Under the pieces are notes generated by a model that saw only the letters and a list, made by a program, of their open reading frames with translations, was not told the origin of the DNA and ran no database searches. The position numbers and the translations under genes are program-made. A DNA stretch of 64,000 nt, from assembly GCF_001541225.1 (NCBI RefSeq), contig NZ_LMTS01000327.1:36560-100559 (forward strand). Reading direction: 5' to 3'. Positions 898 to 16,790 of this stretch are shown one piece after another. The stretch's first letter is position 1; each line of letters opens with the position of its first letter. Source of the DNA: Variovorax sp. WDL1 (GTDB lineage Bacteria > Pseudomonadota > Gammaproteobacteria > Burkholderiales > Burkholderiaceae_C).

Positions 898-973
898 GGG
901 ACGTTAGCTCAGTTGGTAGAGCAGCGGACTTTTAATCCGTTGGTCACAAGTTCGAATCTTGTACGTCCTACCA
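898..973 (+). tRNA. tRNA-Lys(UUU)
   Basis: This is a 76-nt cloverleaf. The acceptor arm GGGACGT pairs with ACGTCCT, closed by a G-U pair at position 1-72. The anticodon loop is CTTTTAA with anticodon TTT, the T arm contains GTTCGAATC, and CCA is encoded in the DNA. It is followed directly by an intrinsic terminator. Confidence 0.97.
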
Positions 974-1081: not shown

Positions 1082-2077
1082 TCAGCTCGGCAAGATCCCC
1101 AGGCGCTTGATCAGGTCCCCCCAGCGCTGGCTGTCCGCCAGCACGAGCTTGCGGAAGTCGTCCCCATAGACCTGTGACGGAATCCCGCCGCCCTTGCGCA
1201 CGGCTTCCTGGAACACGGGGTCCGCCTGCATGTCCTGGATGGCCTTGCCGAGCTTGGCTAGTATGGCGGGCGGCAGGTTGGCCGGAGCGACCATGCCGAA
1301 GAGCTGGTCGGGCAGCGCCGCAGGGGACCCTGCCTCCTTGAGCGAAGGGACGCTGGGCAACGAGGGATCGCGGGTCTCGCCCGTCACCACCAGGGGCTTG
1401 AGCTTGCCGGCGTTGATCAGCCCCAGCGAAGTGGGCACGGAGGCGAAGGTGTATTGCACCTCGCCGCCGATGATTGCTGCATCCGTCTCCGGCCCGGCCT
1501 TGAACGGAATGTGCACGGCCTTGATGCCCACGGCCGAGTTGAACTCCTCGGCGGCCAGGTGAATGCTGTTGCCGATGCCGGAAGAGCCGAAGTTCAGCGC
1601 GCCCGGCTTGGACTTGGCGAGCGCGATGAACTCGGCCAACGTGTTGACGCCGAGCTGCGGCGACACCACGAGGACCTGGCGCGATGTCTGGATCAGGCCC
1701 AGGTAGGTGAACGAGCGCGCGACGTCGTAGCCGGGGCTCTTGATCAGGTGCGGCGCAGAGGTCAGTGCCGTGCTGGTGCCCATGCCGATGGTGTAGCCGT
1801 CCGGAGCCGCGCGGGCGACGTGCGCCAGGCCGATGGTGCCCGAGCCGCCCAGCTTCAGGTCGACGATGACGTTGCCGTTGAGCCGCTGGTTGAGCTGCAC
1901 GACGATGAGGCGCGCCAGGAAGTCGACAGCGCCACCGAAGGGCGAAACCAGGGTGATCGGCTTCTCCGGATAGGCGCCCTGTGCCAGTGCGGCCAGCGGC
2001 ATGGCGCCGAGCGACGCGGCGGCCAGGCCGCCCGAGATGATGGCCGTTCGGCGGGTGACGAGAGGGCGGTCGGTCAT
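1082..2077 (-). CDS. TctC/Bug-family tripartite tricarboxylate transporter receptor
   Basis: This is a periplasmic solute-binding protein of 331 aa, of the family that captures carboxylates or other small anions for TctAB-type carriers. The N-terminus has a TRRT twin-arginine-like motif, a hydrophobic stretch and an ALAQG cleavage region, followed by YPEKPITLVSPF, the typical first strand of Bug proteins. DGYTIGMG and related family blocks follow. I chose ATG at 2077 because AAGGAAACCC precedes it and the signal peptide then starts at residue 1; the frame is open further upstream. No tctA or tctB lies in the window. It diverges from the catabolic operon at 2292 and shares its operator-containing intergenic region. 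The ligand is unknown. Confidence 0.9.
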   Translation of the reverse strand: MTDRPLVTRRTAIISGGLAAASLGAMPLAALAQGAYPEKPITLVSPFGGAVDFLARLIVVQLNQRLNGNVIVDLKLGGSGTIGLAHVARAAPDGYTIGMGTSTALTSAPHLIKSPGYDVARSFTYLGLIQTSRQVLVVSPQLGVNTLAEFIALAKSKPGALNFGSSGIGNSIHLAAEEFNSAVGIKAVHIPFKAGPETDAAIIGGEVQYTFASVPTSLGLINAGKLKPLVVTGETRDPSLPSVPSLKEAGSPAALPDQLFGMVAPANLPPAILAKLGKAIQDMQADPVFQEAVRKGGGIPSQVYGDDFRKLVLADSQRWGDLIKRLGILPS

Positions 2078-2291: not shown

Positions 2292-3350
2292 TTGCAATCC
2301 AATCAACCCGTCGCGCTGGTCGCGGGAGCCAGCGGGATCGTGGGCACGGGCATCGCGCAGCGGCTCGTGGCCGACGGCTGGCGCGTGTTGTGCGCCTCGC
2401 GCTCGGGCGGCGGCGGCGTCGCCGTGACCGAGGGCATCGCCGTGGACCTGATGGATCCGCACGCATGCCGCAAGGCCATCGCGCCGCACGAGGGAATCAG
2501 CCACGTCTTCTACGCGGCTTACCAGCAGGCACACAGCCGGGCTGCCGAGGTGGCGCCCAATCTCGGCATGCTGCGCAACGTGGTGGAGGCCGCGAGCGCC
2601 TCGGCACCGCGCCTGCGAAAGATCGTTCTGGTCACGGGTGCCAAGTTCTACGGCATCCAGTGGGGCGCCGTGTCCACGCCATGCCGCGAGAGCGATGCGC
2701 GGCAACTGCCGCCCAATTTCTACTACGACCAGGAAGACTTCCTGCGCCAGGCGCAGCGCGGCCAGGCATGGTCGTGGGTCAACCTCATTCCGCCTTTCGT
2801 CTCGGGCTTCGCGGTCGGCAACCCGATGAACCTGGTGCTGGGGGTCGGCATCTACGCTGCCGTCTGCAAGGAGCTGGGGCTGCCGCTGCGCTTTCCGGGC
2901 AGCGCGGGTGCCTACGATGCCTTGCACCAGATCGCCGACGCCCAGCAGATCGGCGCGGCTGCGAGCTGGGCCGCGACGGCCGACACAGCGGCCAACCAGG
3001 CCTTCAACGTCGCCAACGGCGACGCCGCGCGCTGGCGAAATACGTGGCCGGTGATCGCCGCGGGCCTGGACATGGAAGCGGCGCAGCCCAAGACCATGCC
3101 GCTTGCCGACGTGATGCCCGACCAGCAGGCCGTGTGGGATCGGATCGCGCAGCGGCACGGCCTGCGCAGCATCGAGATTGCGAAGATCGTGAACTGGGCC
3201 TGGGTCGACTACATGCTGCGCATGTCGCATGACGTGGTGCTCGAGACCGGCAAGATCCGCCGCGCGGGCTTTCATGACTGCATCGAGACCGACCGTGTGT
3301 TCGTGCAGCGTCTGCGCGAACTGCAGGAGCACAAGGTGATTCCACAATGA
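2292..3350 (+). CDS. PRISE-type SDR reductase (progesterone 5-beta-reductase/iridoid synthase-like)
   Basis: This is an NAD(P)-dependent extended short-chain dehydrogenase of 352 aa. GASGIVG (residues 12-18) is the dinucleotide-binding turn. TGAKFYG places a lysine at 118, and NFYYDQEDF places a tyrosine at 145. These match the Lys/Tyr pair of the PRISE family, which reduces activated C=C bonds of enones such as progesterone or 8-oxogeranial. The start is TTG at 2292, preceded by AGGAG at good spacing. It is the first gene of an operon with overlapping genes, under an operator palindrome. A role in reducing an enone or enoyl intermediate is inferred; the substrate is not known. Confidence 0.82.
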   Translation: MQSNQPVALVAGASGIVGTGIAQRLVADGWRVLCASRSGGGGVAVTEGIAVDLMDPHACRKAIAPHEGISHVFYAAYQQAHSRAAEVAPNLGMLRNVVEAASASAPRLRKIVLVTGAKFYGIQWGAVSTPCRESDARQLPPNFYYDQEDFLRQAQRGQAWSWVNLIPPFVSGFAVGNPMNLVLGVGIYAAVCKELGLPLRFPGSAGAYDALHQIADAQQIGAAASWAATADTAANQAFNVANGDAARWRNTWPVIAAGLDMEAAQPKTMPLADVMPDQQAVWDRIAQRHGLRSIEIAKIVNWAWVDYMLRMSHDVVLETGKIRRAGFHDCIETDRVFVQRLRELQEHKVIPQ

Positions 3351-4195
3351 ATGCGCGGCACCGCAGGACGGCTGACCTGACACTGGGCTTCCTGACGCTG
3401 GGCGCGCAGGCAGCACCGCTGGACACCATCGAGGCCGCCGCACAGGCCGGCTTCGGCGCGGCCGGGACGCGCGTGAGCGGACGCTACCCCGGCGATGCCT
3501 GGCCGTCGGTCGAGGCCGACCCTTCGGCATTCGAGAGGATCCGCGCCACCGCTGCCGAGAAGGGCGTTCGCATATCGAGCATCAGCGGCTACTACCTGTC
3601 GCCGCAGGTGCGCTCCTCGCACCTGATGGCCAACGTCGAGGCGGCCAGGGCCGTGGGCGCCCCGATGATCCTGCAGGGCTGCTTCGAGGCGGACCACGCG
3701 CGCGTCGCATCGCTGCTGCGCGACTACGCGGCCGCCGCTGCCGACGCGGGCATCCGGATCGCGCTGGAGTTCATGCCGATGAGTGAACTGAAGACGATCT
3801 GGCAGGCGCAGGCGGTCATCACCGCCAGCGGCGCGGGCAATGCCGGGCTCCTGATCGACACGCTGCACCTCGCACGCTCCGGCGCCACCGCCGCAGATGT
3901 GGCCGCGCTGGACCCGGCCATCATCTACCTCACGCAGCTCAGCGATGCGCCTGCGCAACTGGCCGCCGGCAGCACGCTGTTCGACGAGGCGATGTCGGGG
4001 CGCATGTATCTCGGCGACGGCGGTCTCGACCTGGCGTCCGTGGTGAATGCGCTGCCGGCCGATGCAGAGCTCGAACTGGAGACGCCGGTGGTCGCGCACG
4101 CCGGGCTACCGCCGGCGGCGCGCGCGCGCCAGGCTGCCGAGGCGGCGCAACGATTCTTCGACCGCCACTTTCCCGCTGCCATGGAGGGACCATGA
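3347..4195 (+). CDS. Sugar phosphate isomerase/epimerase-type TIM-barrel protein
   Basis: This protein of 282 aa is of the xylose isomerase-like TIM-barrel (AP endonuclease 2) superfamily. Visible features are the N-terminal LGFLTLGAQAAPLDTIEAA strand-helix, GVRISSISGYY, the IALEFMP strand with a glutamate ligand, and the GLLIDTLHLARSG block that usually provides metal ligands. It overlaps the preceding gene by ATGA and the next gene by ATGA, so translation is probably coupled. In catabolic operons such proteins act as isomerases, epimerases or hydrolases. The reaction here cannot be named from sequence. Confidence 0.8.
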   Translation: MNARHRRTADLTLGFLTLGAQAAPLDTIEAAAQAGFGAAGTRVSGRYPGDAWPSVEADPSAFERIRATAAEKGVRISSISGYYLSPQVRSSHLMANVEAARAVGAPMILQGCFEADHARVASLLRDYAAAAADAGIRIALEFMPMSELKTIWQAQAVITASGAGNAGLLIDTLHLARSGATAADVAALDPAIIYLTQLSDAPAQLAAGSTLFDEAMSGRMYLGDGGLDLASVVNALPADAELELETPVVAHAGLPPAARARQAAEAAQRFFDRHFPAAMEGP

Positions 4196-4901
4196 TGCTC
4201 ATCAAGACGCTTTGCCTGGCTGCCTCGCAACCGGCTCCCGCGGCCGCGGATGCACTCGAGCGGACGGCCGCACAGGCGTTGCGCGAGGTGCCTGGCCTGC
4301 AGCTGGCGCAGGTGAACCGCGTCGTGCGCCATGTGCCGACGGACTACATCGAGAACGACAGGCCTTATGGCGGCGTGGTGGCGCAGGCGGATGCCATCGA
4401 TGTGTCGATGGATCTGCATTTCGCCGATGCCGCAGCCGCCCGGCAGGCCGTCGAGTCGCCCGCATGGGCGGCGCTGATGAAGGGCATGCAGGGCGTCGCG
4501 CGTCTGCTCTTTGCGATGGACAGCGAACCGAACGTGCCGGTGCCCCTGCGCCACGGTGCCGTCGACGGCGGGTTCCGCCGCTGGTTGCTGCTGACGCGCA
4601 AGGCCGCCTCGCGAGAGGATTTTCGAGCTGCCTGGTTCGGCCGCCATGCCAGCCTGGTCAGGCACCTGCCGCTGCTCGACGGCTACGTGCAGAACCTCGT
4701 GTCGGCGCGCTACGACGCAGCCGGGCGGCCGGCTGCCTACGAGAGCCTGCCGATCGACGGCATCGCCGAGGTGTGCTTTGCCGACGAAGCCGCCATGAAC
4801 ACGAGCTATGCATCCGATGCGCGCCTGCCGCTCAAGGACGATGGACGCGAGCTCAATGCGCGGGTGAGCACCATCCTCGTCCAGGGCAGGTGGTCCGATG
4901 A
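4192..4901 (+). CDS. EthD-domain protein with a C-terminal frameshift (no in-frame stop)
   Basis: The protein has two ferredoxin-like dimeric alpha/beta-barrel halves. The second (about residues 125-235, from RRWLLLTRKAASREDF to NARVSTILVQG) is EthD-like. As sequenced, its frame has no stop until 7887 and would run through the next gene into the CoA-transferase. Adding one G to the GGG tract at 4884-4886 gives ...VQGQVVR-stop, with TGA at 4899-4901 overlapping the next ATG at 4898. That restores the ATGA overlap seen at most junctions of this block. I therefore place the real end at 4901 and suspect a one-base deletion or sequencing error. The function of EthD domains in such operons is mostly unknown. 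Confidence 0.62.
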
Positions 4902-6685
4902 AGGCGGCAAGCGAGGGCTTCGACCAGACGGTCGACGTGGTGGTGATCGGCACCGGGGCCGGCGGCATGGCGGCCGCGGTGGCCGCACGCAAGATGGGGC
5001 TCGAGGTGCTCCTGCTCGAAAAGGAGCCGCTGTACGGTGGCACAACGGCGCGATCGGGCGGCGTGCTGTGGATCCCGTGCAATCCGATCTCCACCTTCAA
5101 GCCCGAGCCGGACTCGATGGACGACGCACGCACCTACCTGAAGTACGAATGCGGCGATTTCCACGACGGCGAGCGCGTGGAGGCCTTCCTCGCCAACGGT
5201 CCGCGCATGGTCGATTTCTTCGTGCGCCAGACCGCGGTGAAGCTGATCGCGCTCCCGGATTACCCGGACTACCACGCAGAGAGTCCCGGCGGGCGCATGG
5301 CCGGGCGTTCGATCATGGCCGCGCCGCTCGACGGGCGCGAGCTCGGCGATCACATCCGATCGCTGCGGCCTCCGCTCAAGGAGATCACCTTCGTGGGCAT
5401 GATGTTCAACTCGAGCGCCGAGGTCGGGCACTTCTTCAACGTCACGCGGTCATTCAAGTCGGCGGCCTACGTCGCGAAGCGGCTCGTGACGCATGCGATC
5501 GAGATGATGTTCCACGGCCGTGCGATGCGGCTGACCAACGGCAATGCACTGGCCGCAAGGCTGGCGAAGTCGGCCTTCGATCTCGGCATTCCGATGTGGC
5601 TCGAATCGCCGGCCCGGGCGCTCGTGCGCGATGGCGGGCGCGATGGCGGACGCATCAGTGGCGTCGTCGTGGGCAAGCCAGACGGCAGCAGCGTGCGTGT
5701 CGGCGCGCAGCGCGGCGTTGTGCTGGCGGCGGGTGGATTTCCGCAGGATGTCGAGCGCCGGAAAAGGCTGTTTCAGCATGCGCCGACCGGCCACGAGCAC
5801 CTGTCGCCCGCACCGTCCGGCAACACCGGCGACGGCCTGCGCCTGGCCGAGTCGGTGGGCGGGCAGGTCGGCACGGAGCTGCCGAACGCGGCGGCATGGA
5901 TTCCGGTGTCGAAGGTGCGGCGCGCCAATGGCGAAACCGGCGTCTTCCCGCACCTGATCGACCGCTACAAGCCGGGCATCATCGCCGTCAACCGCGAGGG
6001 CCGGCGCTTCACCAACGAGTCCGACTCGTACCACGACATGGGCATGGCGATGCAGAAGCACTGCGCCGACGGGACCGAGGTCGCCGCCTGGCTGATTGCC
6101 GATCACCGCACCATCCGCCGCTACGGACTCGGCTTCGCGAAGCCGTTCCCGTTGCCACTGGGCGCGCATCTTCGCTCGGGCTACCTGCTGCGCGGAAAGA
6201 CGCTGGGCGAACTCGCCGCCCAGGCCGGCATCGATGGCGCGGCGCTGCAGATGACGGTGGACGACTACAACGTCGGCGCGGAAGAAGGCAAGGACCTCCA
6301 GTTTCGCCGCGGCTGGCGTGTCTACAACCGCTTCCTCGGCGACAAGACCCATGGGCCCAACCCCTGCGTCGCGCCGGTGAAGGACGGGCCGTTCTATGCG
6401 GTCAAGGTCGTCATGGGCGACCTGGGCACTTTCGCCGGCATCAGGACCGACCGCTTCGCGCGCGTGCTCGACGGCGAAGGCCGGCCGGTGCCCGGGCTGT
6501 TCGCGGCCGGCAACGACAACGCGAGCGTCATGGGCGGCGGTTACCCCGGAGGCGGCATCACCCTCGGGCCGGCGATGACGTTCGGCTTCGTGGCGGCCGA
6601 GTTCATGGCCGGGCACGGCGCGTCGGAGGCCACCGCGGAGGCACGGCCGTCGATGACCACTGCCCGAGGCGGGAGCGAGAGATGA
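4898..6685 (+). CDS. FAD-dependent 3-ketosteroid-delta1-dehydrogenase-like oxidoreductase
   Basis: This is a flavoprotein of 595 aa in the fumarate reductase/ketosteroid dehydrogenase family. VVVIGTGAGGMAAA (residues 15-28) is the FAD Rossmann loop, and LLLEKEPLYGGTTARSGG follows. GGGYPGGGITLGPAMTFG near residue 546 is the C-terminal FAD-contacting signature typical of 3-ketosteroid-1-dehydrogenases. No signal peptide is visible. ATGA overlap with the CoA-transferase follows. It probably introduces or removes a C=C bond next to a carbonyl. A steroid substrate is not shown. The same cluster has a second flavoprotein of this superfamily at 13719. Confidence 0.85.
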   Translation: MKAASEGFDQTVDVVVIGTGAGGMAAAVAARKMGLEVLLLEKEPLYGGTTARSGGVLWIPCNPISTFKPEPDSMDDARTYLKYECGDFHDGERVEAFLANGPRMVDFFVRQTAVKLIALPDYPDYHAESPGGRMAGRSIMAAPLDGRELGDHIRSLRPPLKEITFVGMMFNSSAEVGHFFNVTRSFKSAAYVAKRLVTHAIEMMFHGRAMRLTNGNALAARLAKSAFDLGIPMWLESPARALVRDGGRDGGRISGVVVGKPDGSSVRVGAQRGVVLAAGGFPQDVERRKRLFQHAPTGHEHLSPAPSGNTGDGLRLAESVGGQVGTELPNAAAWIPVSKVRRANGETGVFPHLIDRYKPGIIAVNREGRRFTNESDSYHDMGMAMQKHCADGTEVAAWLIADHRTIRRYGLGFAKPFPLPLGAHLRSGYLLRGKTLGELAAQAGIDGAALQMTVDDYNVGAEEGKDLQFRRGWRVYNRFLGDKTHGPNPCVAPVKDGPFYAVKVVMGDLGTFAGIRTDRFARVLDGEGRPVPGLFAAGNDNASVMGGGYPGGGITLGPAMTFGFVAAEFMAGHGASEATAEARPSMTTARGGSER

Positions 6686-6742
6686 GCCGCACGGCCGTTC
6701 CGAAGGCGAATAGCACCGCAGCCGAAGGCGAAGGTATTCCAG
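6682..6742 (+). repeat. 61-bp repeat, copy 1 (inverted relative to copy 2 at 12120-12180)
   Basis: The copies agree at 59 of 61 positions and lie in opposite orientation about 5.4 kb apart. Each begins with ATGAGCCGCACGGCCG, contains GAAGGCGAA twice, and ends in TCCAG. In this copy the element supplies the first 20 residues of the CoA-transferase frame, MSRTAVPKANSTAAEGEGIP. Confidence 0.85.
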
Positions 6743-7887
6743 GAAGCCGCGCCACCGGCCCCTTGGGCGGCCTCAGGATCATCGAGATGGCCGGGCTCGC
6801 GCCCGGCCCCTTTGCCGCCATGATGCTCGCCGACATGGGCGCGACGGTGCTGCGCATCGACCGGCCCGATCCGGCGGCGCGCGCAATGCCGCAGCGCTTC
6901 TACTTCACCGACCGCAATCGCCGTTCGATCGCGGTGGACCTCAAGTCGAGCGGCGGCGCCGCGCTGGTCAAGCGCCTCGTTGCAGGTGCGGACGCGCTCA
7001 TCGAGGGCTTCCGCCCGGGCGTGATGGAGCGGCTGGGACTGGGTCCCGAACCTTGCCTGGCGCTCAACCCGAAGCTGGTCTACGGCCGCATGACGGGCTG
7101 GGGCCAGGAAGGCCCGATGGCCATGGCGCCCGGGCACGACATCAACTACATCGCGCTGTCAGGCGCGCTGGAGGCGATCGGCAATGCGGACGGCCCACCG
7201 GTGGTGCCGCTGAACCTGGTCGGCGACTTCGGCGGCGGCGGCATGTACCTTGCCTTCGGCATCGCCTGCGCGCTGATCGAAGCCGCTCGCTCCGGCAAGG
7301 GCCAGGTCGTCGATGCGGCCATGGTCGATGGTGCGGCCTCGCTCATGACCTACTTCTTCGGCTATCGCGCAGGCGGTGCGTGGCCGGGGAGGGGGCGCAG
7401 CGTGACCGGCGGCGGCTCGCCGTTCTACGCCGTGTACGAGACGCGCGACGGCAAGTACATCAGCATCGGCTCGGCCGAGCCGAAGTTCTACGCCGAGCTG
7501 CTGCGCCAGACGGGACTCGAGAACGCGGGCCTGCCCGATCGCGCTGACCCGGCCAACTGGCCGGCCATCCGTGCGCGACTGGCCGAGGTGTTCCGCACGC
7601 GCACGCGCGGCGAGTGGTGCGCGCAGCTCGAGACCAGCGAGACCTGCTTCGCGCCCGTCCTGAGCATGGAGGAGGCCGCCGCGCATCCGCACAATCGCGC
7701 GCGCGGCACCTTCGTCGAAGTCGACGGCATGGTGCAGCCCGCGCCGGCGCCGCGCTTCTCACGAACGCCGGCCGCGTTGCCGGCAGCCGGGGTGGAGCCG
7801 GGCATCGATCTGCATGCGGCGCTGGCAGGCTGGGGCCTGGAGCTGGCAGAGATCGACGGGCTCGCGGCCGCCGGCGTCGTGGGCTGA
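6682..7887 (+). CDS. Family III CoA-transferase / alpha-methylacyl-CoA racemase-like (CaiB/BaiF)
   Basis: This enzyme of 401 aa transfers CoA between acyl-CoA and a carboxylate, or racemises 2-methylacyl-CoA. LRIIEMAGLAPGPFAAMMLADMGA (residues 31-54) is the family N-terminus. EGFRPGVMERLGLG and the GHDINYIALSG signature (151-161) point to the racemase-like branch. ATG at 6682 overlaps the upstream TGA. The first 20 or so residues come from a repeated 61-bp element, not the family core, which starts near residue 28. Its place in the operon suggests it activates the substrate or epimerises an intermediate. Racemase and transferase cannot be told apart here. Confidence 0.85.
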   Translation: MSRTAVPKANSTAAEGEGIPGSRATGPLGGLRIIEMAGLAPGPFAAMMLADMGATVLRIDRPDPAARAMPQRFYFTDRNRRSIAVDLKSSGGAALVKRLVAGADALIEGFRPGVMERLGLGPEPCLALNPKLVYGRMTGWGQEGPMAMAPGHDINYIALSGALEAIGNADGPPVVPLNLVGDFGGGGMYLAFGIACALIEAARSGKGQVVDAAMVDGAASLMTYFFGYRAGGAWPGRGRSVTGGGSPFYAVYETRDGKYISIGSAEPKFYAELLRQTGLENAGLPDRADPANWPAIRARLAEVFRTRTRGEWCAQLETSETCFAPVLSMEEAAAHPHNRARGTFVEVDGMVQPAPAPRFSRTPAALPAAGVEPGIDLHAALAGWGLELAEIDGLAAAGVVG

Positions 7888-7918
7888 AAGCCGCCGACCC
7901 GGGGATACCCGCTTCCTG

Positions 7919-7958
7919 TTGACGAACATCGGGCTTCAAGCATAATGGTCTTACCAAT
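7919..7958 (+). promoter_or_regulatory. Promoter with TGGTNNNACCA operator before the second tctC
   Basis: TTGACG (7919-7924), a 16-bp spacer and CATAAT (7941-7946) form a good sigma-70-type promoter. The near-palindrome AATGGTCTTACCAAT (7944-7958) overlaps the -10 box and expected start site, a repressor-type placement. The layout is the same as at 13180-13221. Confidence 0.7.
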
Positions 7959-8015
7959 GAATGACAGGGCCATGCGGCAACAGCAACCCTGCGTCCGAAT
8001 CCAAGGAGACGAACC

Positions 8016-8984
8016 ATGATTTCACGCCGCCACCTCATGGGCGCCGCTGCCCTTGCGAGTCTGCCGTATGGCATGGCCCGCGCGCAGGGCTTCCCGAACA
8101 AGCCGATCCGCATCGTCGTGCCCTTTGCCGCCGGCGGCACGGGCGACGTGCTGTGCCGCAACCTGCAGGAGCCGCTGCAGCGCCTGCTCGGCCAGCCGAT
8201 CGTCATCGACAACCGGCTGGGCGCCAGCGGCACGATGGGCACGCAGTATGTCAAGAACGCGGCGCCTGACGGATACACGCTGCTGCAGGTGGGCAACAGC
8301 ACAGTCACCACATCGCTGATGCAGAAGACGGCCGGCTACGACGCCATCAAGGACCTTGCGCCGGTCGCGAACATCGCGACCACGCCGATGGTGTTCCTGC
8401 TCAACCCGGTGATCCCGGCCAAGAGCATCGCCGAGCTGATCGCGTATGCCAAGACGCGGCCGGGCGAGCTCGAGTACGCGTCTGCCGGCCGCGGCTCGCT
8501 GGGCCATCTCGCGAACGAGCTCTTCAACCAGATGGCCGGGCTGAAGATGGTCTACGTTCCGTACCAGGGCTCGTCGCAGGCCACCAACGCGGTGCTGGCG
8601 GGAGACGTCAAGGTCGTGATCACCACGCCCTCCGATGCGATCAATGCCTTCGTGGGCAGCGGCAGGCTGCGCATGCTGGGCGTGTCCTCGCCCAAGCGCA
8701 GCCCGCTGCTGCCGAAGGTGCCCGCCATCGCCGAGTCGCTGCCCGGTTTCAGCGTGATGGCGTGGTTCGGCCTGGCGGCACCGGCGGGCACGCCCGCGGA
8801 GATCGTGGCGCGGATCAACGAGGCCGTGAACATGGCGGTGGCAGAGGCGGCCATGCAGGAGAAGCTCAAGGGCCTGGGCATGACGCCCCAGCCCGGCAAT
8901 GCCGCCGCCTTCGGCGAACTGATCCGCAACGACCAGCAGATCTGGACGCGCGTCATGCGCGAGGCCAACCTGTCGCCTGAGTGA
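8016..8984 (+). CDS. TctC/Bug-family tripartite tricarboxylate transporter receptor (second)
   Basis: This is a periplasmic solute receptor of 322 aa. The signal sequence starts ISRRHLMGAAALASLPYG and ends near ARAQG. The mature part begins FPNKPIRIVVPFAAGGTGD, the classical Bug start, with DGYTLLQVGNS and VPYQGSSQATNAVLAG further in. An AAGGAGACGAACC ribosome site precedes ATG 8016. It is followed after 80 bp by the thiolase-like gene and has its own operator-controlled promoter. It probably imports a carboxylated substrate or breakdown product of this pathway. No membrane subunits of its class are present here. Confidence 0.9.
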   Translation: MISRRHLMGAAALASLPYGMARAQGFPNKPIRIVVPFAAGGTGDVLCRNLQEPLQRLLGQPIVIDNRLGASGTMGTQYVKNAAPDGYTLLQVGNSTVTTSLMQKTAGYDAIKDLAPVANIATTPMVFLLNPVIPAKSIAELIAYAKTRPGELEYASAGRGSLGHLANELFNQMAGLKMVYVPYQGSSQATNAVLAGDVKVVITTPSDAINAFVGSGRLRMLGVSSPKRSPLLPKVPAIAESLPGFSVMAWFGLAAPAGTPAEIVARINEAVNMAVAEAAMQEKLKGLGMTPQPGNAAAFGELIRNDQQIWTRVMREANLSPE

Positions 8985-9064
8985 GAAGGTGACCGCGGCA
9001 AGGGTTCACCTGCAACAGTGTTCGGCCGGCCATTGAACCGATAGATACAAATGGATATTCAGCG

Positions 9065-10246
9065 ATGACGAATCGATCACTTCGGGGCCGCGTTGCCATC
9101 GTCGGCATCGGCGAGACCACCTACTACAAGCACAGCCAGTCGCCCGATGCCGAGTTCAAGCTCGCGCTGAAGGCGGTGCTGGCCGCCTCGAAGGACGCGG
9201 GCATCGACCCGCGCGACATCGATGGCTTCGCCTCCTATTCCAACGACCGCACCGACCCTTCGCGCCTTTCTGCGGCGCTGGGGGCGAAGCAGCTGCGTTC
9301 GACCACGATGCAGTGGGGTGGCGGAGGCGGTGGGAACTGTGGGGCCGTTGCCAACGGGGCCGCGGCCATTGCGGCGGGGCTGGCCGATTGCGTGGTCGCC
9401 TTTCGCGCGCTGGCCCAGGGCGAGTACGGCCGCTTCGGCAAGGCGCCGACCGCGCCGACCATCGCGGGCGACATGGCCTACCAGGCGCCCTACGGTGTGC
9501 TCTCGCCGGGGCAGAAGTTCGCGATGAAGGCGCGGCGCTTCATGCATGAGCACGGGGTACGGCAGGAGGCGTTGCGCGCCATCGCCATGGCCTCCTACCG
9601 CCACGCGCAGTCGAACCCGCGCGCCGTGATGTACGGCAAGCCGCTCACCGAGGCGAAGTACGACGACTCGCGCTGGATCGTCGAGCCCTTCCACCTGTTC
9701 GACTGCTGCATGGAGAACGACGGCGCCGCCGCGGTGATCATGGTGCCGGCCGAGCGTGCGAAGGATTTCCCGAACAAGCCGGTGTACGTCCTCGGCGCGG
9801 CAACCGGCTCGGACCATCGCGTGGGTGCGAATGCGCACAACCAGCCGAACTACGCGAGTTCGAGCTTCTCTACCGTGGCGCCCCACATGTACGGGATGGC
9901 CGGCCTGGGCCCGAAGGACGTGGGCGTGGTGCAGAGCTACGAGAACTTCACCGGCGGCGTGCTGATGGCGCTGGCGGAGCACGGCTTCTTCGAGCCCGAG
10001 GAGGCCAACGATTTCCTGCGGCTCGAGAACCTGCTGGCACCGGGCGGCAAGCTGCCGCTCAACACCAGCGGCGGCAACCTGGCCGAGTGCTACATGCATG
10101 GCTTCGAGCTGGTGCTCGAAGCAGTGCGCCAGGTGCGTGGCACTTCCACCGCGCAGGCGCCGCGCAACGACGTGGCGCTGGTGATCGGCGGGCCAATGGT
10201 CACGCCGGTGAGCAATCTACTTCTCGGATCGGAGGCGACCCTGTGA
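9065..10246 (+). CDS. Thiolase-like (SCP-x/lipid-transfer type) protein
   Basis: This protein of 393 aa has the thiolase fold and belongs to the branch annotated as lipid-transfer protein or acetyl-CoA acetyltransferase. GRVAIVGIGETTYYKHS is the typical N-terminus. Cys92 lies in GGGGGGNCGAVANGAA, where thiolases carry their nucleophile. TSGGNLAECYMHGF near residue 331 resembles the C-terminal thiolase motif. It overlaps the next gene, a zinc-ribbon OB-fold protein, by GTGA. Such pairs form complexes that act on acyl-CoA, and in actinobacterial steroid side-chain degradation the paired Ltp2/DUF35 proteins perform retro-aldol cleavage. A similar carbon-carbon cleaving role is inferred. Confidence 0.82.
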   Translation: MTNRSLRGRVAIVGIGETTYYKHSQSPDAEFKLALKAVLAASKDAGIDPRDIDGFASYSNDRTDPSRLSAALGAKQLRSTTMQWGGGGGGNCGAVANGAAAIAAGLADCVVAFRALAQGEYGRFGKAPTAPTIAGDMAYQAPYGVLSPGQKFAMKARRFMHEHGVRQEALRAIAMASYRHAQSNPRAVMYGKPLTEAKYDDSRWIVEPFHLFDCCMENDGAAAVIMVPAERAKDFPNKPVYVLGAATGSDHRVGANAHNQPNYASSSFSTVAPHMYGMAGLGPKDVGVVQSYENFTGGVLMALAEHGFFEPEEANDFLRLENLLAPGGKLPLNTSGGNLAECYMHGFELVLEAVRQVRGTSTAQAPRNDVALVIGGPMVTPVSNLLLGSEATL

Positions 10247-10701
10247 CCCCCAGCACGACGAACGAAGCGTACCTGCCGGCCGGGCTGCCGATCCCGGTGC
10301 CGGAGGCAGACGGCCTGTCCGCGCCTTTCTGGAACGGCCTGCGGGAGAACCGGGTGATGGTCCAGCACTGCCGGGCCTGCGGCACGTTCCAGCATGGCCC
10401 CGAATGGATCTGCCATGGCTGCCATGCTGTCGATCCGCCGTTCGAGCAAGTGGCGCCGCGCGGGCGGATCTTCAGTTGGGAGCGCGCCTGGCATCCGGTG
10501 CACGCCTGCCTGAACGGGCACGGCCCCTATCTGGTGGTCGTGGTCGAACTGCGCGATGCGCCCGGCGTGCGAATGCTGGGCAACCTGCTGGGCGATCCGA
10601 TGGCCGAGGTCGTCATCGGCGCCGAGGTCGAAGGCGTGTTCGAACACCATCTCCAAGCAAGCCCGCCCTTCACGCTGCTGCAGTGGCGTTGCGTGAAGTA
10701 G
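10243..10701 (+). CDS. Zn-ribbon OB-fold (DUF35-type) partner of the thiolase-like protein
   Basis: This protein of 152 aa has an N-terminal rubredoxin-like zinc ribbon, with ligands Cys43, Cys46, Cys57 and Cys60 (CRACG and CHGC). An OB-fold-type beta-rich region follows (about residues 70-150). The start is GTG at 10243, overlapping the thiolase-like stop codon. DUF35 proteins are obligate partners of thiolase-like or HMG-CoA-synthase-like enzymes and channel acyl-CoA. It converges with the membrane-protein gene ending at 10723. Confidence 0.85.
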   Translation: MTPSTTNEAYLPAGLPIPVPEADGLSAPFWNGLRENRVMVQHCRACGTFQHGPEWICHGCHAVDPPFEQVAPRGRIFSWERAWHPVHACLNGHGPYLVVVVELRDAPGVRMLGNLLGDPMAEVVIGAEVEGVFEHHLQASPPFTLLQWRCVK

Positions 10702-10722
10702 AACCGCCGAACCGGTGCTGGT

Positions 10723-12180
10723 TCAAGGATGAACCTGCACCATCGCGGAGCCGATGCCGAGTGCCAATGCGGCGACGCCCAGGCAGATCAGCGCGAACAC
10801 GTGGTTGACCCGGACGGTGACGGCATAGATCGAGAAGCCGGAGTAGCGGCTCGTCATGAGGGCGATCATGGAGAAGGGCGTCGAACAGGTGGCGATGGCC
10901 CAGCCGACCAGGATCGCCGCGAGATGCGGCATCGGCGCGAGATGCAGCACGCCGGGCGGCAGGGACGAGGCCACCAGCACGGCAGACAGGACCGGATGCA
11001 CAGCCATGAAGCCGAGGGCGATGATCGCCAGCATCAGGGCCAGGCAAGCGAGCACGGGTGAATGCGACAGTGCGCCGCCGATCGTCGCCGTCCAGGCCGG
11101 CGGAACGGCGCTGGCGATGATCGTGCCGCCGCAGCCGGCGACCATGAAGAGGGCGACCTCTCCGGCCAGCGCAGGCAGGGCGAGCACATCGGTGCGCAGC
11201 AGCGCGAAGGCCTGCGCAAGACGGTGCGGGCCCTTCGCCTGGGCCCGGTGCAAAGCGAGCACGGCCGGCGGGATCAGGACCACGATGGCGCCGACCACGG
11301 CGATGTGCAGCGCCTGCGCCAGCAGCATCACGGCGCCGAGAAAGCCGGCCATGGCCGCGATCATCGGCAGCAGCGCGCGGTACAGCGCGATGTCAGGCCG
11401 CGCCGCGGGAGCCGGCGTCTTGCGGCCGCGCAGCCGCCACAGGTCGAGCGCCGTGCCGATCAGGACGGCGCTGACAGCCAGGCCCAGCGTCAACGGGACG
11501 ATGGTGAACCAGTCGAGGCCGGGATAGAGCGCAACCAGGATCGTCAGGTTGCTGACCATGGGGCTCCACAGGGTGGCCGCGGCGAAGCTGCGGTTGATCG
11601 CCGCGAACATCGCCAGCCGGTCTTCCTCCACCGCGAACTCGCCTCTCGAGGCCATCTGCAGCAGCAAGGTGACTCCGGCCATCCCCAGCAGGCCGCCGAA
11701 GAGCTGGGCTGCCACCGAGAACCACGCGTACCGGCTGCGCATGCTGCTCGCCAGCAGGTGCTGCGTGACGACATGCGTGTGCGGGCTGTGCAGCGCGGCG
11801 CGTGCCAGCAGCGACACCGAGGACACCAGCGAAACCAGCAGTCCTCCGATGGCAATTCCCTTTGCAAGGCTTGCGATCGGCGCCGCCGAGAAAGGCAGCA
11901 TCAGCAGGCTCGCCGAGCCCACGGCAAGTGACATGCGGCGGATGCTGGGCGGAATGCGCCGGTGCTCCAGCAGAAGAAAAAGTGCCGCCGCGGCACCCAT
12001 CACCCACACCGCGCCGGCCCGCGGCCAGAACAGATGGGCGAGCGTTCCGAGCGCGACCACGATGAGGCAGGCCGCGCCGGGCCAGCCTCGGGATCCGGTC
12101 ACGGCGATTGCTTCGTTCACTGGAGTACCTTCGCCTTCGGCTGCGGTGCTATTCGCCTTCGGAGCGGCCGTGCGGCTCAT
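10723..12180 (-). CDS. Polytopic membrane protein of unknown family, probable transporter
   Basis: The protein of about 485 aa has roughly 12 hydrophobic helices and little else, such as GAACLIVVALGTLAHLF near the N-terminus and VFALICLGVAALALGIG at the C-terminus. A loop with AATLWSPMVSNLTILVALYP recalls re-entrant loops of ion-transporter-superfamily carriers, but I do not recognise the family. The start is uncertain. TTG at 12192 overlaps the upstream stop, ATG at 12180 lies at the start of the 61-bp repeat, and GTG at 12120 follows a GAAGG at the repeat's end. The GTG start gives the most natural membrane-protein N-terminus. It may be the carrier for the cluster's substrate. Confidence 0.7.
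   Translation of the reverse strand: MSRTAAPKANSTAAEGEGTPVNEAIAVTGSRGWPGAACLIVVALGTLAHLFWPRAGAVWVMGAAAALFLLLEHRRIPPSIRRMSLAVGSASLLMLPFSAAPIASLAKGIAIGGLLVSLVSSVSLLARAALHSPHTHVVTQHLLASSMRSRYAWFSVAAQLFGGLLGMAGVTLLLQMASRGEFAVEEDRLAMFAAINRSFAAATLWSPMVSNLTILVALYPGLDWFTIVPLTLGLAVSAVLIGTALDLWRLRGRKTPAPAARPDIALYRALLPMIAAMAGFLGAVMLLAQALHIAVVGAIVVLIPPAVLALHRAQAKGPHRLAQAFALLRTDVLALPALAGEVALFMVAGCGGTIIASAVPPAWTATIGGALSHSPVLACLALMLAIIALGFMAVHPVLSAVLVASSLPPGVLHLAPMPHLAAILVGWAIATCSTPFSMIALMTSRYSGFSIYAVTVRVNHVFALICLGVAALALGIGSAMVQVHP
12120..12180 (-). repeat. 61-bp repeat, copy 2
   Basis: This is the inverted partner of the element at 6682-6742, with two mismatches in 61 positions. It lies between the tandem-repeat protein gene and the membrane-protein gene. 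It ends GAAGGTACTCCAG, followed by TG, so its last base forms the first base of the GTG at 12120. Confidence 0.85.
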
Positions 12181-12188
12181 GGGCGCAG

Positions 12189-13034
12189 TCAACTCAGGAG
12201 GAGCAAGGCGGCTTCCTTCGCGCTCTGGCCGACCTGCACGCCCTTGTCGCGGGCGAGCTTGTTGGCGGCGCTGATGACGCCGTCGAAGTAGGTGCTCTGG
12301 CCGTCGCCCATGCGGGCGGTGAGCGCGCTGACCGAGGCGCCGGGGATGCCGTCGGGCTCGACGGCTTCCAGCGCGCTCAGTCCGGAGTTGTTCTTGCCGA
12401 TGCCGCCGTCAGAGCAAATGAAGGCCCAGGGCCGGTAGTCGCGGAAGTAGCCGACCACGCTGCGCCCGGTGTGCCCGGCGGTGCACAGCACGTTGCGCTC
12501 CCTGTCCTCGGGCAGGGCGTAGGCGATGGAGTCGGTGCACACGATGCTGCGTCCGTTCGCCGCAGTGTGGACCAGGCGCCGTCGCGTCGGCTCGAACACC
12601 GCCGGCTTCTTCTCGCCGGAGAGAAGGTATTGCGCGGCCTCGCGGGCGCGCATGCCAGGCTCGATGCCCAGCGCCTGAGCCGCAACGTTGACGCGGCTCA
12701 CGATGCCGTTGTCGTGGAGGTCCGAGCCGTTGCCCATTTCGGCGGTCATCACGTCCACGGCGGCGGACGGGATACCCAGCGCCTCGTAGTACCAGAGTCC
12801 GGCAATGCCGGCGCCGTCCTTGCCGATGGCGCAGTCCAGCCCGATGACGGCACGGGGCCTGGCCGCCATCACCATGCGTGCGCACAACACGCCGCAGTAG
12901 GAGGCGTTCACCACCACATCGCCGGCGGTCTCGGGCGCCTGGGCAACGTAGCCCTCGACGTAGGTGGCCGAGTCGAAGATGAGGACGCGCCCCTGGGGGC
13001 TGCGAACGATTCGGGGAGCGGGGCTGGATGTCAT
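12189..13034 (-). CDS. Unrecognised protein of two tandem homologous domains
   Basis: The protein of 281 aa has two related halves, about residues 14-138 and 159-280. The alignable core is G(C/G)IGK(D/N)xxGxxxLxxxxxxGIPxAxVxxxTAxMGxG, followed by DxG(I/V)(V/I)SxxN and a closing EAAxxLL. Both halves also begin with a GRxxxxxDSxxY strand. The glycine-rich conserved core suggests a metal- or anion-binding pseudo-symmetric fold, but I cannot name a family. Cyanuric acid hydrolase-type enzymes have three repeats and are longer. ATG 13034 is chosen because the frame upstream lacks a ribosome site. Its stop overlaps a TTG of the membrane-protein gene, so the two are probably co-expressed. Confidence 0.8.
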   Translation of the reverse strand: MTSSPAPRIVRSPQGRVLIFDSATYVEGYVAQAPETAGDVVVNASYCGVLCARMVMAARPRAVIGLDCAIGKDGAGIAGLWYYEALGIPSAAVDVMTAEMGNGSDLHDNGIVSRVNVAAQALGIEPGMRAREAAQYLLSGEKKPAVFEPTRRRLVHTAANGRSIVCTDSIAYALPEDRERNVLCTAGHTGRSVVGYFRDYRPWAFICSDGGIGKNNSGLSALEAVEPDGIPGASVSALTARMGDGQSTYFDGVISAANKLARDKGVQVGQSAKEAALLLLS

Positions 13035-13085
13035 GGAAGAGGGGCCTTTGCCGAAAGAGTAGGTGCCTGGACGGCAAAATGCCGT

Positions 13086-13100
13086 AATGGTAAATCCATT
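13086..13100 (-). promoter_or_regulatory. Operator-like palindrome upstream of the tandem-repeat protein gene
   Basis: AATGGTAAATCCATT reads TGGTNNNTCCA, the same variant as the site near 2114. It lies about 52 bp before the ATG at 13034 and 103 bp from the strong palindrome serving the divergent cupin gene. No good -35/-10 pair was found on this strand. Confidence 0.5.
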
Positions 13101-13179
13101 TGCACAATCTTGGGCGCGGGCACGGCGGGTCGGGTATGCCCCCCAGCCCCCTCTGGGCGAGAAGTGCCCGATAAGGGTG

Positions 13180-13221
13180 TTGACCAATTGTTTGTGCCAG
13201 GCATAATGGTAAGACCATTAT
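13180..13221 (+). promoter_or_regulatory. Promoter with perfect 19-bp operator palindrome before the cupin gene
   Basis: TTGACC (13180-13185), a 16-bp spacer and CATAAT (13202-13207) form the promoter. ATAATGGTAAGACCATTAT (13203-13221) is a perfect 19-bp palindrome covering the -10 box and predicted start site. It is the best copy of the cluster's TGGTNNNACCA motif. Confidence 0.8.
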
Positions 13222-13227
13222 ATTGGA

Positions 13228-13635
13228 ATGCACATGGCCGCGTTCACTCCCTTTCATCCGCACCACGAGAAGCTCGCCGACGACGCCTCGCGCTACGTCG
13301 ACGTCGCGAGCATTCCATGGAAGCCGACGCCAACGCCGGGCATCGACATGAAAGTCCTGATGCAGGACGAGGCGAGCGGCCTGCTTACGGCGCTGTTCCG
13401 CTGGGAGCCCGGCACCCAGCTGCCGCTGCACGAGCACGTCGAGATCGAGCAGACCTACGTGCTCAAGGGCAGCATCGTCGACGAGGAGGGCGAAGTGCGC
13501 GAGGGCGGCTACGTCTGGCGTCCCAAGGGCAACCGCCACCTCGCGCGTTCGCCCAAGGGGGCGCTCGTGCTGTCCTTCTTCCTGAAGCCGAACAAGTTCC
13601 TCGAGGGCGACCACGCGGGCGAGGAGCTCAAGTAG
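13228..13635 (+). CDS. ChrR-type cupin domain protein
   Basis: This is a small single-domain cupin of 133-135 aa. The metal-binding motif runs FRWEPGTQLPLHEHVEIEQT, with the two histidines and a glutamate in place. GGYVWRPKGNRHLARSPKG supplies the second cupin motif with its histidine. Similar proteins include ChrR-like cupins and dihydroxyacetophenone-type dioxygenases. ATG at 13234 fits the GGA at 13225-13227 better than ATG at 13228, so the protein may be two residues shorter. It sits just behind the operator palindrome. A dioxygenase or sensor role is possible; the reaction is unknown. Confidence 0.82.
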   Translation: MHMAAFTPFHPHHEKLADDASRYVDVASIPWKPTPTPGIDMKVLMQDEASGLLTALFRWEPGTQLPLHEHVEIEQTYVLKGSIVDEEGEVREGGYVWRPKGNRHLARSPKGALVLSFFLKPNKFLEGDHAGEELK

Positions 13636-13722
13636 ATGATCCACCGCTGCATTGTTCATCCCATCATCGTGGACAACCCGCCCGGCGCTTCCGCCGGCAA
13701 GACCGGAATCACCGCCGAGTGA
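13636..13722 (+). CDS. Possible 28-aa ORF coupling the cupin to the flavoprotein
   Basis: ATG at 13636 directly follows the cupin TAG stop. GAGGAG lies about 10 bp upstream. The frame ends in TGA at 13720-13722, which overlaps the GTG start of the flavoprotein. It encodes MIHRCIVHPIIVDNPPGASA followed by eight more residues, with no known domain. It may be a translational coupler or simply unused sequence. Confidence 0.35.
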   Translation: MIHRCIVHPIIVDNPPGASAGKTGITAE

Positions 13723-15218
13723 AGCCGGGGTTCGATGTCCTTGTCGTCGGCGGCGGCGCGTCGGGGCTGAGTGCCGGCATCGAGGCTGCGGCGGCGGGCG
13801 CGCACACGGCGGTGCTCGAGAAGAACGCCCAGCCCGGAGGCAGCAGCCGCCTGTCGGTCGGATCGATCAATGCCGCCGGCTCGAGCCTGCAGAAGCGCGC
13901 CGGCATCGTCGACACGCCTGACGAGCATTTCGAGGACATGGATCACTACATGGGTGCATTCGCCTCGCACGAGAACCTGGCGCTGCGCCGGCTGCTGGTC
14001 GACAACGCGGCGGGCACGCTCGATTGGCTGATGTCGCTCGGCCTCAGCTTCTACGGCCCGACGGCGGATCCGCCGCACCGCCATCCGCGCATGCACAACG
14101 TGGTGCCGAATTCGCGCGCCTATCCCTACTACCTGGGCCGCGAGGCAAGGCGCAGGGGTGTCGACCTGCGGCTCGGCACGCGCGTGGTCGGTCTGCTGCG
14201 CGCGGATGACGGCGGCGTGCGCGGCGTGTCCGCACTGGTGGACGGCCAGACGGTGGAAATCGAAGCGCGCAAGGGTGTGGTTCTCGCTGCCGGCGACTAC
14301 AGCAACGGACGCGATCTCATGCAACGCTTCCGTCCCGAGCTGGCCGGCATCCCGGGGGTGAATCCAACGGCGACCGGCGACGGGCACCGGATGGCCGAGG
14401 CCTTCGGCGCGCGGCTGGTCAACGGCGAAGTCATCTATGGGCCGGGGCTTCGCTTCGCGGAGCCCGCGCGGCCGAGCCTGGTGCGCCGCCTGCCGCCCTC
14501 GTGGCTGCTGGGCAAGCTGATGCAGCTGTCCTTGAACCATTTGCCGATCGCGCTCTTCCGGCCCTTCGTGATGGCCTTCATGACGGCGTCGCTCGGGCCC
14601 GAAGCATCGCTCCTGCGCGCCGGGGCCGTGCTCGTCAACGCCGACGGACGGCGTTTCACCGACGAACTGGCACAACCGGGCCTGGCGATCGCGCACCAGC
14701 CCGCCGGGCAGGCATGGCTCGTGTTCGACGAACGCGTGGCGCAGATGTTCTCGAAGCCGCCGCACTACGTCTCGACCGCACCAGGCGTGGCCTTCGCCTA
14801 CCTGCCGGACTACCGGCGGCATCGCAAGGATCTCTATCACCGCGCTGGCGACCTCGGCGCCCTGGCCCGCAGCCTGGGCATGCCGCCTGATGCCCTTCGA
14901 GCCACGCTCGAGCAGCACAACGCGGACCTGGCCGCAGGCGCCGCCGGTGCGGCGGCAGGCCGGGGAACGCTGGCGCAAGCACCGTTCCACGCCCTGGGCC
15001 CGTTGGAGAGCCGCATCGTCATCACTGACGGCGGGCTGGCGGTCAATGCCGTCCACCAGGTGCTCGATCGAGAAGGGGCCGTGATCCCCAGGCTCTATGC
15101 CGCCGGGGCCGTGGGGCAGGGCGGGGCGCTCCTGGCCGGCAACGGCCATCACATCTGCTGGGCGGTGACTTCCGGGCGGCGCGCCGGGCGGTTCGTGGCG
15201 CAGGGCCGAGTTGGTTGA
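13719..15218 (+). CDS. FAD-binding oxidoreductase, fumarate reductase/ketosteroid dehydrogenase superfamily
   Basis: This is a flavoprotein of 499 aa. VLVVGGGASGLSAGIEAA (residues 6-23) is the FAD-binding loop. AVLEKNAQPGGSSRLSVGSIN and the C-terminal YAAGAVGQGGALLAGNGHH complete the family pattern. The frame upstream is open but carries no homology, so I place the start at GTG 13719, which overlaps the stop of the short ORF before it. The region around residues 258-295 is hydrophobic (LIGH-like helices around PSWLLGKLMQLSL) and could be membrane-associated. It is probably co-transcribed with the cupin. The substrate is unknown, with an enone or enoyl compound suggested by context. Confidence 0.83.
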   Translation: MKPGFDVLVVGGGASGLSAGIEAAAAGAHTAVLEKNAQPGGSSRLSVGSINAAGSSLQKRAGIVDTPDEHFEDMDHYMGAFASHENLALRRLLVDNAAGTLDWLMSLGLSFYGPTADPPHRHPRMHNVVPNSRAYPYYLGREARRRGVDLRLGTRVVGLLRADDGGVRGVSALVDGQTVEIEARKGVVLAAGDYSNGRDLMQRFRPELAGIPGVNPTATGDGHRMAEAFGARLVNGEVIYGPGLRFAEPARPSLVRRLPPSWLLGKLMQLSLNHLPIALFRPFVMAFMTASLGPEASLLRAGAVLVNADGRRFTDELAQPGLAIAHQPAGQAWLVFDERVAQMFSKPPHYVSTAPGVAFAYLPDYRRHRKDLYHRAGDLGALARSLGMPPDALRATLEQHNADLAAGAAGAAAGRGTLAQAPFHALGPLESRIVITDGGLAVNAVHQVLDREGAVIPRLYAAGAVGQGGALLAGNGHHICWAVTSGRRAGRFVAQGRVG

Positions 15219-16568: not shown

Positions 16569-16790
16569 TCAGTCGGGAACGTCGCCCAGTATCGGCTGGC
16601 CGCCCGCTATCGCCGAGACGAGGCCGACGGCGCCTGCACGCAGCAGTTCCTGCCTCAGCGCCGTCTCCAGCTGATGGCGAGCCGTGTCCGGCCGATCGTG
16701 GTCGTACTCGTCGTCCAACTCGCAGTGCAGGTAGTAGTCAACCCGTGCCATGAGCCGTTCCACCGATGCTGCGAGATCTGTCTCATTCAT
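16569..16790 (-). CDS. Small hypothetical protein (73 aa)
   Basis: The protein starts MNETDLAASVERLMARVDYY and contains an acidic ELDDEYDHDRPD stretch before a helical C-terminal half. GAGGAG lies at good distance upstream of ATG 16790, which supports translation. No domain is recognised. Confidence 0.55.
   Translation of the reverse strand: MNETDLAASVERLMARVDYYLHCELDDEYDHDRPDTARHQLETALRQELLRAGAVGLVSAIAGGQPILGDVPD

Follow-up and report, generated by a model that had tools for sequence, protein, structure and literature searches.

In a 64,000-nucleotide stretch of the Variovorax sp. WDL1 genome (contig NZ_LMTS01000327.1, positions 36,560 to 100,559 of the forward strand; hereafter the window), we find a horizontally placed gene island beside a tRNA-Lys gene that is a variant catabolic set of known enzyme families. 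We lean toward the reading that this island contributes ring redox and side-chain processing to a larger pathway that depends on CoA, whose substrate would be a ring-containing carboxylic acid with a ketone or enone on the ring, either from the start or introduced on the way. A first-pass annotation had described positions 2292 to 15218 as a catabolic cluster of known families matching no recognized pathway, with C=C reduction or desaturation and retro-aldol chain cleavage. The gene set is real, and the PRISE-type reductase, the EthD protein, the thiolase-like/DUF35 pair, the cupin, and the TIM barrel are all borne out by profile matches; two genes (10723-12120 and 12189-13034) had been left unnamed, and of the two TctC receptors, both recognized by PF03401, TctC-1 lies outside those limits. 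A literature search, which covered few subscription journals, found no study of this gene set; the papers listed for bacterial PRISE proteins included none on them, as judged by titles and abstract openings. The window comes from contig C166 of the host genome (8.14 Mb, 351 contigs); G, C, and L numbers are our labels for genomes, contigs, and loci.

The case for ring chemistry begins with the first of two FAD proteins (FAD1), which passes the cut-off of the NF004789 subfamily (754 versus 747 bits) and has as its best solved match the 3-oxosteroid 1-dehydrogenase chain 7p18 (362 bits). The FAD1 segments pdY, nesdsY, and gggYpggG align with identical residues in chain 8joj, a 3-ketosteroid delta-1-dehydrogenase (KstD), and we take these Tyr/Tyr/Tyr/Gly positions to be the KstD catalytic ones. 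Judged by its sequence, FAD1 thus matches, in fold and at conserved positions, enzymes that introduce a double bond into a ring beside its ketone, features shared with the 3-ketosteroid delta-1-dehydrogenases and with ChcC1/ChcC2, although it stays below the equivalog cut-offs listed for both: 500/789, 442/788, and 382/793 bits for three listed NCBIfam ketosteroid dehydrogenase models, and 562/900 bits for ChcC2, the 4-oxocyclohexenecarboxylate dehydrogenase. Since the KstD equivalog cut-offs are not reached, we do not class FAD1 as a KstD. Among the best 25 of 77 families, ChcC2 is the top FAD1 model with a specific named reaction, and three FAD1 homologues likewise score this model above the KstD models.

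The second flavoprotein (FAD2) had also been called ketosteroid dehydrogenase-like, a description that holds for FAD1 and that we reject for FAD2. Its best PDB scores are to urocanate reductase (6t85, 132 bits) and flavocytochrome c (126 bits), against at most 52 bits for delta-1-ketosteroid dehydrogenase chains and 71 bits for the delta-4-(5-alpha) chain 4at0. The NCBIfam scores, all below cut-off, rank the flavocytochrome c model TIGR01813 (177 bits, cut-off 285) above the KstD model (119 bits). Because the flavocytochrome c models and chains outscore KstD, FAD2 is only a distant cousin of that enzyme.

The PRISE-type protein matches PF22917 with 87 bits (cut-off 27) and aligns to the progesterone 5-beta-reductase 5mlh with 154 bits. 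Lys118 and Tyr144, presumably the catalytic pair, are invariant across seven aligned sequences, the window's included. By sequence, then, the protein has the catalytic Lys and Tyr of the plant enone reductases and belongs to the same Pfam family, and it is bacterial. The adjacent TIM-barrel protein (AP_endonuc_2, 73 bits) has weak solved relatives (30.6 bits). This family takes in ring-ketone dehydratases, and the match to QuiC is weak, at 22.5 of 1200 bits.

The side-chain genes fit the same picture. The product of the gene at 6682 to 7887 had been read as a CaiB/BaiF CoA-transferase that would activate the substrate with CoA. The fold stands (CoA-transferase III, 290 bits) and the function does not: the protein aligns over nearly its whole length with the 2-methylacyl-CoA racemase MCR (382 bits), compared with 145 bits for YfdE, the best chain not named a racemase. 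Residues H126, D156, and E241 of MCR, which we assume to be its active-site residues, all align to identical residues, and the motifs are retained in all three orthologues examined. We therefore reject the transferase role and assign the product, on sequence, to the alpha-methylacyl-CoA racemase type; it differs from MCR in an N-terminus extended by a copy of a genomic repeat described below. Another host contig encodes the orthologue of an acyl-CoA ligase whose gene, in a relative, is linked to FAD1.

The thiolase-like protein has a thiolase C-terminal domain, and its closest solved protein is Ltp2 (6ok1, 271 bits; runner-up 155 bits). It carries Tyr at the positions of Tyr294 and Tyr344 of TcLtp2, as do both orthologues examined, and PMC12329534 names these as the catalytic base and acid. 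Its DUF35 partner combines PF12172 (zf-ChsH2) with PF01796 (OB) and has CxxC twice. A thiolase-fold gene next to a DUF35 partner is also the arrangement of the Ltp2-ChsH2 (Thermomonospora curvata) and Sal-Shy (Comamonas testosteroni) aldolases, and the pair bears both catalytic tyrosines of the steroid retro-aldolase Ltp2. Taken together, the FAD1, PRISE, and thiolase/DUF35 families support the C=C redox chemistry at a ring ketone and the retro-aldol side-chain step that had been proposed.

The set is conserved as a unit. A synteny comparison, as the first-pass annotation had suggested, recovered nearly the whole set in the relative G075, with the same genes in the same order and the same chromosomal slot at 84 to 96% identity, minus the membrane gene. 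(Genes of relatives were called with a codon-usage script rather than a standard gene finder, and their start sites are approximate; names without a profile match come from tblastn to proteins of the window or of relatives, or from reading.) Of the 37 Variovorax genomes searched for both proteins, the five with a close PRISE orthologue (at least 74% identity) are also the five with a close FAD1 orthologue (at least 80%, rounded). The chance of drawing the same random five is 1 in C(37,5), that is 1/435,897 or 2.3e-6, a figure without phylogenetic correction and with identity limits chosen after the lists were viewed; among the 37 genomes, identity drops from 74% to 41% for PRISE and from 80% to 58% for FAD1. 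More distant homologues are frequent: 24 of 61 genomes match PRISE, and 17 of 61 match FAD1 at E 1e-200. The host itself has one PRISE match at E 0.001 and one FAD1 match at E 1e-200.

Of 316 stretches related to PRISE, 80 loci were kept, 13 of them with PRISE at 57% identity or more; G018 and G020 account for two of the 13. PRISE and the TIM-barrel gene are adjacent in 12 of the 13, the exception being Paraburkholderia xenovorans LB400. The other 67 loci, where PRISE is 38 to 45% identical to the island protein and some contigs are short, gave no TIM-barrel, FAD1, EthD, cupin, or duplicated-domain protein match at E 1e-12, and the PRISE partnership is for that reason a trait of the closer orthologue group and not of PRISE at large. 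An equivalent of TctC-1 stands beside PRISE in G005, G075, G018, and G020.

The chromosomal site argues for insertion. Left of the tRNA-Lys gene lies tcdA; the phosphatase gene is followed on the right by small, DUF697-like, and ABC-F genes, names that we assign by reading. Five of 28 loci (G013, G018, G025, G029, and G030) have an empty site, with a gene like that at window positions 16970 to 17539 near tRNA-Lys and no island, and a sixth (G006) is probably empty, with a small gene like that at 16569 to 16790 next to tRNA-Lys. The site is occupied by the island in the window and in G075, and the remaining loci have other genes or too little flank. By reading, the tRNA-Lys site beside tcdA looks variable (L252-L279), with different genes in different relatives, a few of them phage- or integrase-like. 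Reading window positions 1 to 20 kb, we recognized no integrase, with no profile search aimed at integrases. Elsewhere the set travels in other company: G005 has a larger version about 11 kb from tcdA, with an 8.5-kb transporter/SDR (short-chain dehydrogenase/reductase)/amidohydrolase/cyclase-type insert and an extra SDR, and in G008 the set stands about 0.47 Mb from tcdA, accompanied by genes for a Rieske oxygenase, amidohydrolases, and additional TctC receptors.

Companion blocks in relatives and in the host suggest what the larger pathway would contain. In 7 of the 13 close loci, TctC-PRISE-TIM is followed by genes for an enoyl-CoA hydratase, a thiolase with a DUF35-like neighbor (by reading), an SDR, a hydratase, and MaoC. 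A Rieske oxygenase and its reductase lie on the other side in six of the seven, the seventh contig ending first. Host contig C4 carries a block of this kind (MaoC 87%, hydratase 88%, SDR 96%, thiolase 97%, hydratase 87%, Rieske 76%, and reductase 65% identical), in which the hydratase and Rieske genes are 116 bp apart with no TctC-PRISE-TIM between them (L317). By reading, the gene content of the other half of that contig (L321) resembles a conjugation (type IV secretion) system, and the C4 block may on that account sit on a mobile element. A second block in G018 joins EthD-FAD1, a racemase, CaiB, a thiolase/DUF35-like pair, two acyl-CoA dehydrogenases, and an acyl-CoA ligase. Host contig C6 (L318, L320) has a block of the G018 type with the ligase (90%), the two acyl-CoA dehydrogenases, CaiB, and the thiolase/DUF35-like pair; it is without EthD-FAD1 and the racemase, genes that are present in the island. 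The gaps in C4 and C6 may reflect displacement of the original genes by the island copies.

Two further relatives bear on the ring genes. In G073, where PRISE was not seen within the 20 kb examined, the FAD1 cluster contains an old-yellow-enzyme gene (PF00724; N-ethylmaleimide reductase model, 326/403 bits). It looks as though two enone reductases had been exchanged, the old yellow enzyme standing in for PRISE, which supports enone reduction as the role of PRISE. On chromosome 1 of LB400 (928586-949623, L084; genes called with retrained codon scores), FAD1, the cupin, the duplicated-domain protein, PRISE, an EthD-like gene (by reading), and a fumarylacetoacetate (FAA) hydrolase lie together. 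The same stretch holds SDRs, transporters, an IclR-like regulator, and an esterase-like gene, several named by reading. Host contig C165 has a second KstD-like FAD gene, 54% identical to FAD1 (L184, 8649-10403), with NIPSNAP-like (by reading), thiolase/DUF35-like, and racemase-like (52%) neighbors.

On the reading that we favor, an acyl-CoA ligase encoded elsewhere would activate the side chain, and the racemase would invert an alpha-methyl center so that acyl-CoA dehydrogenases can act. Hydration would then give a beta-hydroxyacyl-CoA, and its retro-aldol cleavage by the thiolase/DUF35 pair would release a ring ketone together with a short acyl-CoA. FAD1 and PRISE would adjust ring double bonds, at different positions or in different steps, before ring cleavage.

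Several points weigh against this scheme. It is drawn from sequence, and both the order of steps and the substrate are proposals. FAD1 and PRISE run opposite reactions, and their placement in one pathway is our inference. The oxyanion His of the Ltp2 motif YDHF is replaced by Asn (YENF) in the window thiolase and in two orthologues, which sets it apart from Ltp2-ChsH2 and Sal-Shy, and no hydratase gene was recognized in the block. The C6 block holds other genes and also lacks the SnoaL-like gene of the G018 block, which the island does not supply; the island thiolase, cupin, FAD2, and duplicated-domain protein are without counterpart in either host block, and the fit is therefore inexact. In LB400, the 21 kb read gave no match to the racemase, thiolase, or DUF35 protein, and the CoA branch and the ring branch may therefore be separate functions. 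Finally, no att repeat was found at the island edges (the 3' part of the tRNA and the following bases, at least 12 nt, sought elsewhere in the window), and insertion is for this reason deduced from the empty sites.

For the substrate class, steroids, norisoprenoids, and alicyclic acids may all be candidates. Steroid or bile-acid side-chain and A-ring catabolism, with the racemase acting at the C25 methyl, FAD1 as a ketosteroid delta-1-dehydrogenase, the thiolase/DUF35 pair as a C17 side-chain aldolase, and PRISE as a 5-beta-reductase, would explain why four families with steroid counterparts occur in one block, why the nearest solved chain of FAD1 is a 3-oxosteroid 1-dehydrogenase, and why the thiolase, with both tyrosines kept, is nearest to Ltp2. 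We nonetheless consider it unlikely: FAD1 is below three KstD cut-offs and scores higher with the 4-oxocyclohexenecarboxylate model, as do three homologues, and the PRISE-linked Rieske oxygenase is phthalate-dioxygenase-like (664 bits), which led us to reject its identity as KshA (40 bits). FAD1 is below cut-off with that monocyclic-ring model too, and its scores do not discriminate between steroid and isoprenoid.

Norisoprenoid catabolism, of the abscisic acid and ionone types, would cut the chain to a beta-hydroxy acid at the ring carbon, release a cyclohexenedione by retro-aldol cleavage, and then reduce the enone and desaturate the ring. What makes abscisic acid attractive is rhodococcal acid, a bacterial metabolite of it (PMC9599779), which has a beta-hydroxy acid arrangement that an Ltp2-type enzyme could cleave; the comparison with abscisic acid degradation in Rhodococcus sp. 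P1Y is one of chemistry and not of homology, the known metabolite fitting the possible chemistry of the set. The discussion in that paper assigns no genes, describes mechanisms and enzymes as still to be worked out, and suggests a Baeyer-Villiger step. Among the loci compared here, one from Hydrogenophaga (L082) joins PRISE-TIM with an FMO-like (flavin-containing) monooxygenase and, by reading, a second one. We regard this alternative too as doubtful. It gives an alpha-methylacyl-CoA racemase no obvious task, and the block genes of the window include no FMO-like monooxygenase. A stronger version, in which the island, C4, and C6 would jointly encode every step of a pathway not described before, acting on abscisic acid or another cyclic-enone acid of the norisoprenoid class, is quite unlikely: there, ligase, racemase, and beta-oxidation would shorten the side chain to a tertiary beta-hydroxyacyl-CoA, the Ltp2-type aldolase would free a cyclohexenedione, and the plant-like PRISE and the KstD-like dehydrogenase would ready the ring for cleavage.

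Catabolism of alicyclic (cyclohexane-type) acids with aromatization, FAD1 acting like ChcC2, seems improbable. ChcC2 is the highest specific-reaction model for FAD1 and outranks KstD for three homologues, and the TIM-barrel family would be in place; FAD1 reaches only 562 of the 900 bits for ChcC2, and aromatization needs no enone reductase, racemase, or retro-aldolase. That the island is a mixture of genes serving several unrelated pathways is very improbable, given the order kept in G075 and the co-occurrence of PRISE and FAD1 orthologues, even though neighbor sets vary between relatives and some versions lack the membrane gene, cupin, FAD2, or duplicated-domain gene.

A second finding concerns how two of the island genes begin. 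Those for the racemase and the membrane protein each start within a copy of a 60-bp repeat, the two copies being 97% identical over 61 nt. At least 44 matches to the repeat occur in the host, where 40 of 92 candidates were scored, and at least 53 in G008, where 40 of 82 were; it is matched in 40 of 61 genus genomes at E 0.001, many weakly, and in 10 of 120 family genomes, host included, at E 1e-6. We read the 30 best loci per genome, which resolved into 27 distinct arrays in the host (L006-L035) and 22 in G008 (L216, L280-L308). Eighteen of the 27 host arrays start an open frame of at least 100 aa (one, L013, out of frame with the called gene), eight start a short frame with the next gene within 100 nt, and one does otherwise. 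The corresponding G008 counts are 15, 3, and 4 of 22, where L301, among the 15, falls within a longer called gene and L296, among the 4, is misaligned. The upstream stop overlaps the ATGA of the repeat in 16 of 27 host and 16 of 22 G008 arrays; as background, a random point in these loci falls within 5 nt of a same-strand called start about 0.6% of the time. The host frames typically encode MSRTAAPKANSTAAEGEGTP and then an unrelated protein (MurG-, TrpA-, LivG-, and RapZ-like by reading). Tandem copies are spaced 60 bp apart, and the reading frame is therefore kept.

The copies read thus sit mostly at gene starts and operon junctions, where the repeat is predicted to lengthen unrelated proteins in frame by about 20 aa at the N-terminus. 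Among the racemase orthologues, that of G005 has the repeat, and those of G075, G008, and G018 do not. RNA folding of the repeat region gave a z-score of -0.06. One copy lies at 38408 to 38468 of contig C165. Comparable elements are the Rickettsia palindromic elements, which are in-frame gene insertions; the literature search, within the coverage given above, found nothing describing this start-codon repeat.

Table 1. Features of the island and its immediate surroundings (positions in the window).
Feature	Position	Strand	Evidence and remarks
tRNA-Lys (TTT)	898..973	+	ARAGORN + Rfam; left island edge
TctC-family solute receptor 1 (TctC-1)	1082..2077	-	PF03401 210 bits; divergent from PRISE
PRISE-type enone reductase, start approximate	2292..3350	+	PF22917
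TIM-barrel (AP_endonuc_2) protein, PRISE partner	3347..4195	+	PF01261
EthD-domain protein	4192..4898	+	PF07110 49 bits
KstD-like FAD dehydrogenase (FAD1)	4898..6685	+	NF004789 754 bits
Alpha-methylacyl-CoA racemase-type protein (by sequence)	6682..7887	+	MCR 1x74 382 bits
60-bp start-codon repeat, copy 1	6682..6741	+	Sequence comparison
TctC-family solute receptor 2 (TctC-2)	8016..8984	+	PF03401 238 bits
Thiolase-like protein, putative Ltp2-type retro-aldolase	9065..10246	+	6ok1 271 bits
DUF35 (ChsH2-type) partner, four zinc-ribbon Cys	10243..10701	+	PF01796 + PF12172
Membrane protein (by reading), no Pfam match	10723..12120	-	Frame reaches 12192 through repeat
60-bp start-codon repeat, copy 2	12121..12180	-	Sequence comparison
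Uncharacterized protein, two similar halves (duplicated-domain protein)	12189..13034	-	DUF1805 sub-cut-off
Cupin_7 protein	13228..13635	+	PF12973 81.5 bits
Flavocytochrome c / urocanate-reductase-like flavoprotein (FAD2)	13719..15218	+	6t85 132 bits
Dual-specificity phosphatase	15637..16164	-	PF00782 47.5 bits; same slot occupied in G075

The remaining genes are less telling. The EthD frame shows a one-base length difference near its 3' end relative to G005, G008, and G075 and consequently has no stop of its own before the next gene; the change may be a sequencing error or real. The frame stays open across the FAD1 region into the racemase frame (a 1231-aa open frame). The best PDB match of the cupin is ChrR (44 bits), and the idea that it is the acetylacetone dioxygenase Dke1 was rejected, no such chain being among its 18 PDB matches. 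The duplicated-domain protein scores 28.7 bits with DUF1805, just under the cut-off of 29.5; its match to IMS (PF00817) exceeds the cut-off (26.4 versus 23.2 bits) over 29 residues with no individually significant stretch and is taken as spurious. Matches to the protein, single-domain in some cases, occur in 26 of the 300 genomes examined from the order, the host among them. Single-domain relatives of about 131 aa in other genomes of the order in some cases adjoin dihydroxy-acid-dehydratase-like genes (by reading). In LB400 and G073, the duplicated-domain gene adjoins the cupin and FAD1 genes. AlphaFold2 run on a two-sequence alignment of this protein reached a predicted local distance difference test score of only 41. 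The 465-aa membrane protein gave no NCBIfam match at E 0.01; a piece of it stands at the edge of the G005 locus read, and none is in the G075 cluster.

If the favored reading is true, plant-like enone reductases, which are widespread in bacteria (the 316 related stretches), would be tied to a catabolic pathway whose chemistry can be tested. A gene of CaiB/BaiF type may, in a cluster like this one, encode a racemase. The island would also provide candidate genes for the degradation of ring acids such as abscisic acid. The start-codon repeat is possibly more surprising than the gene cluster itself.

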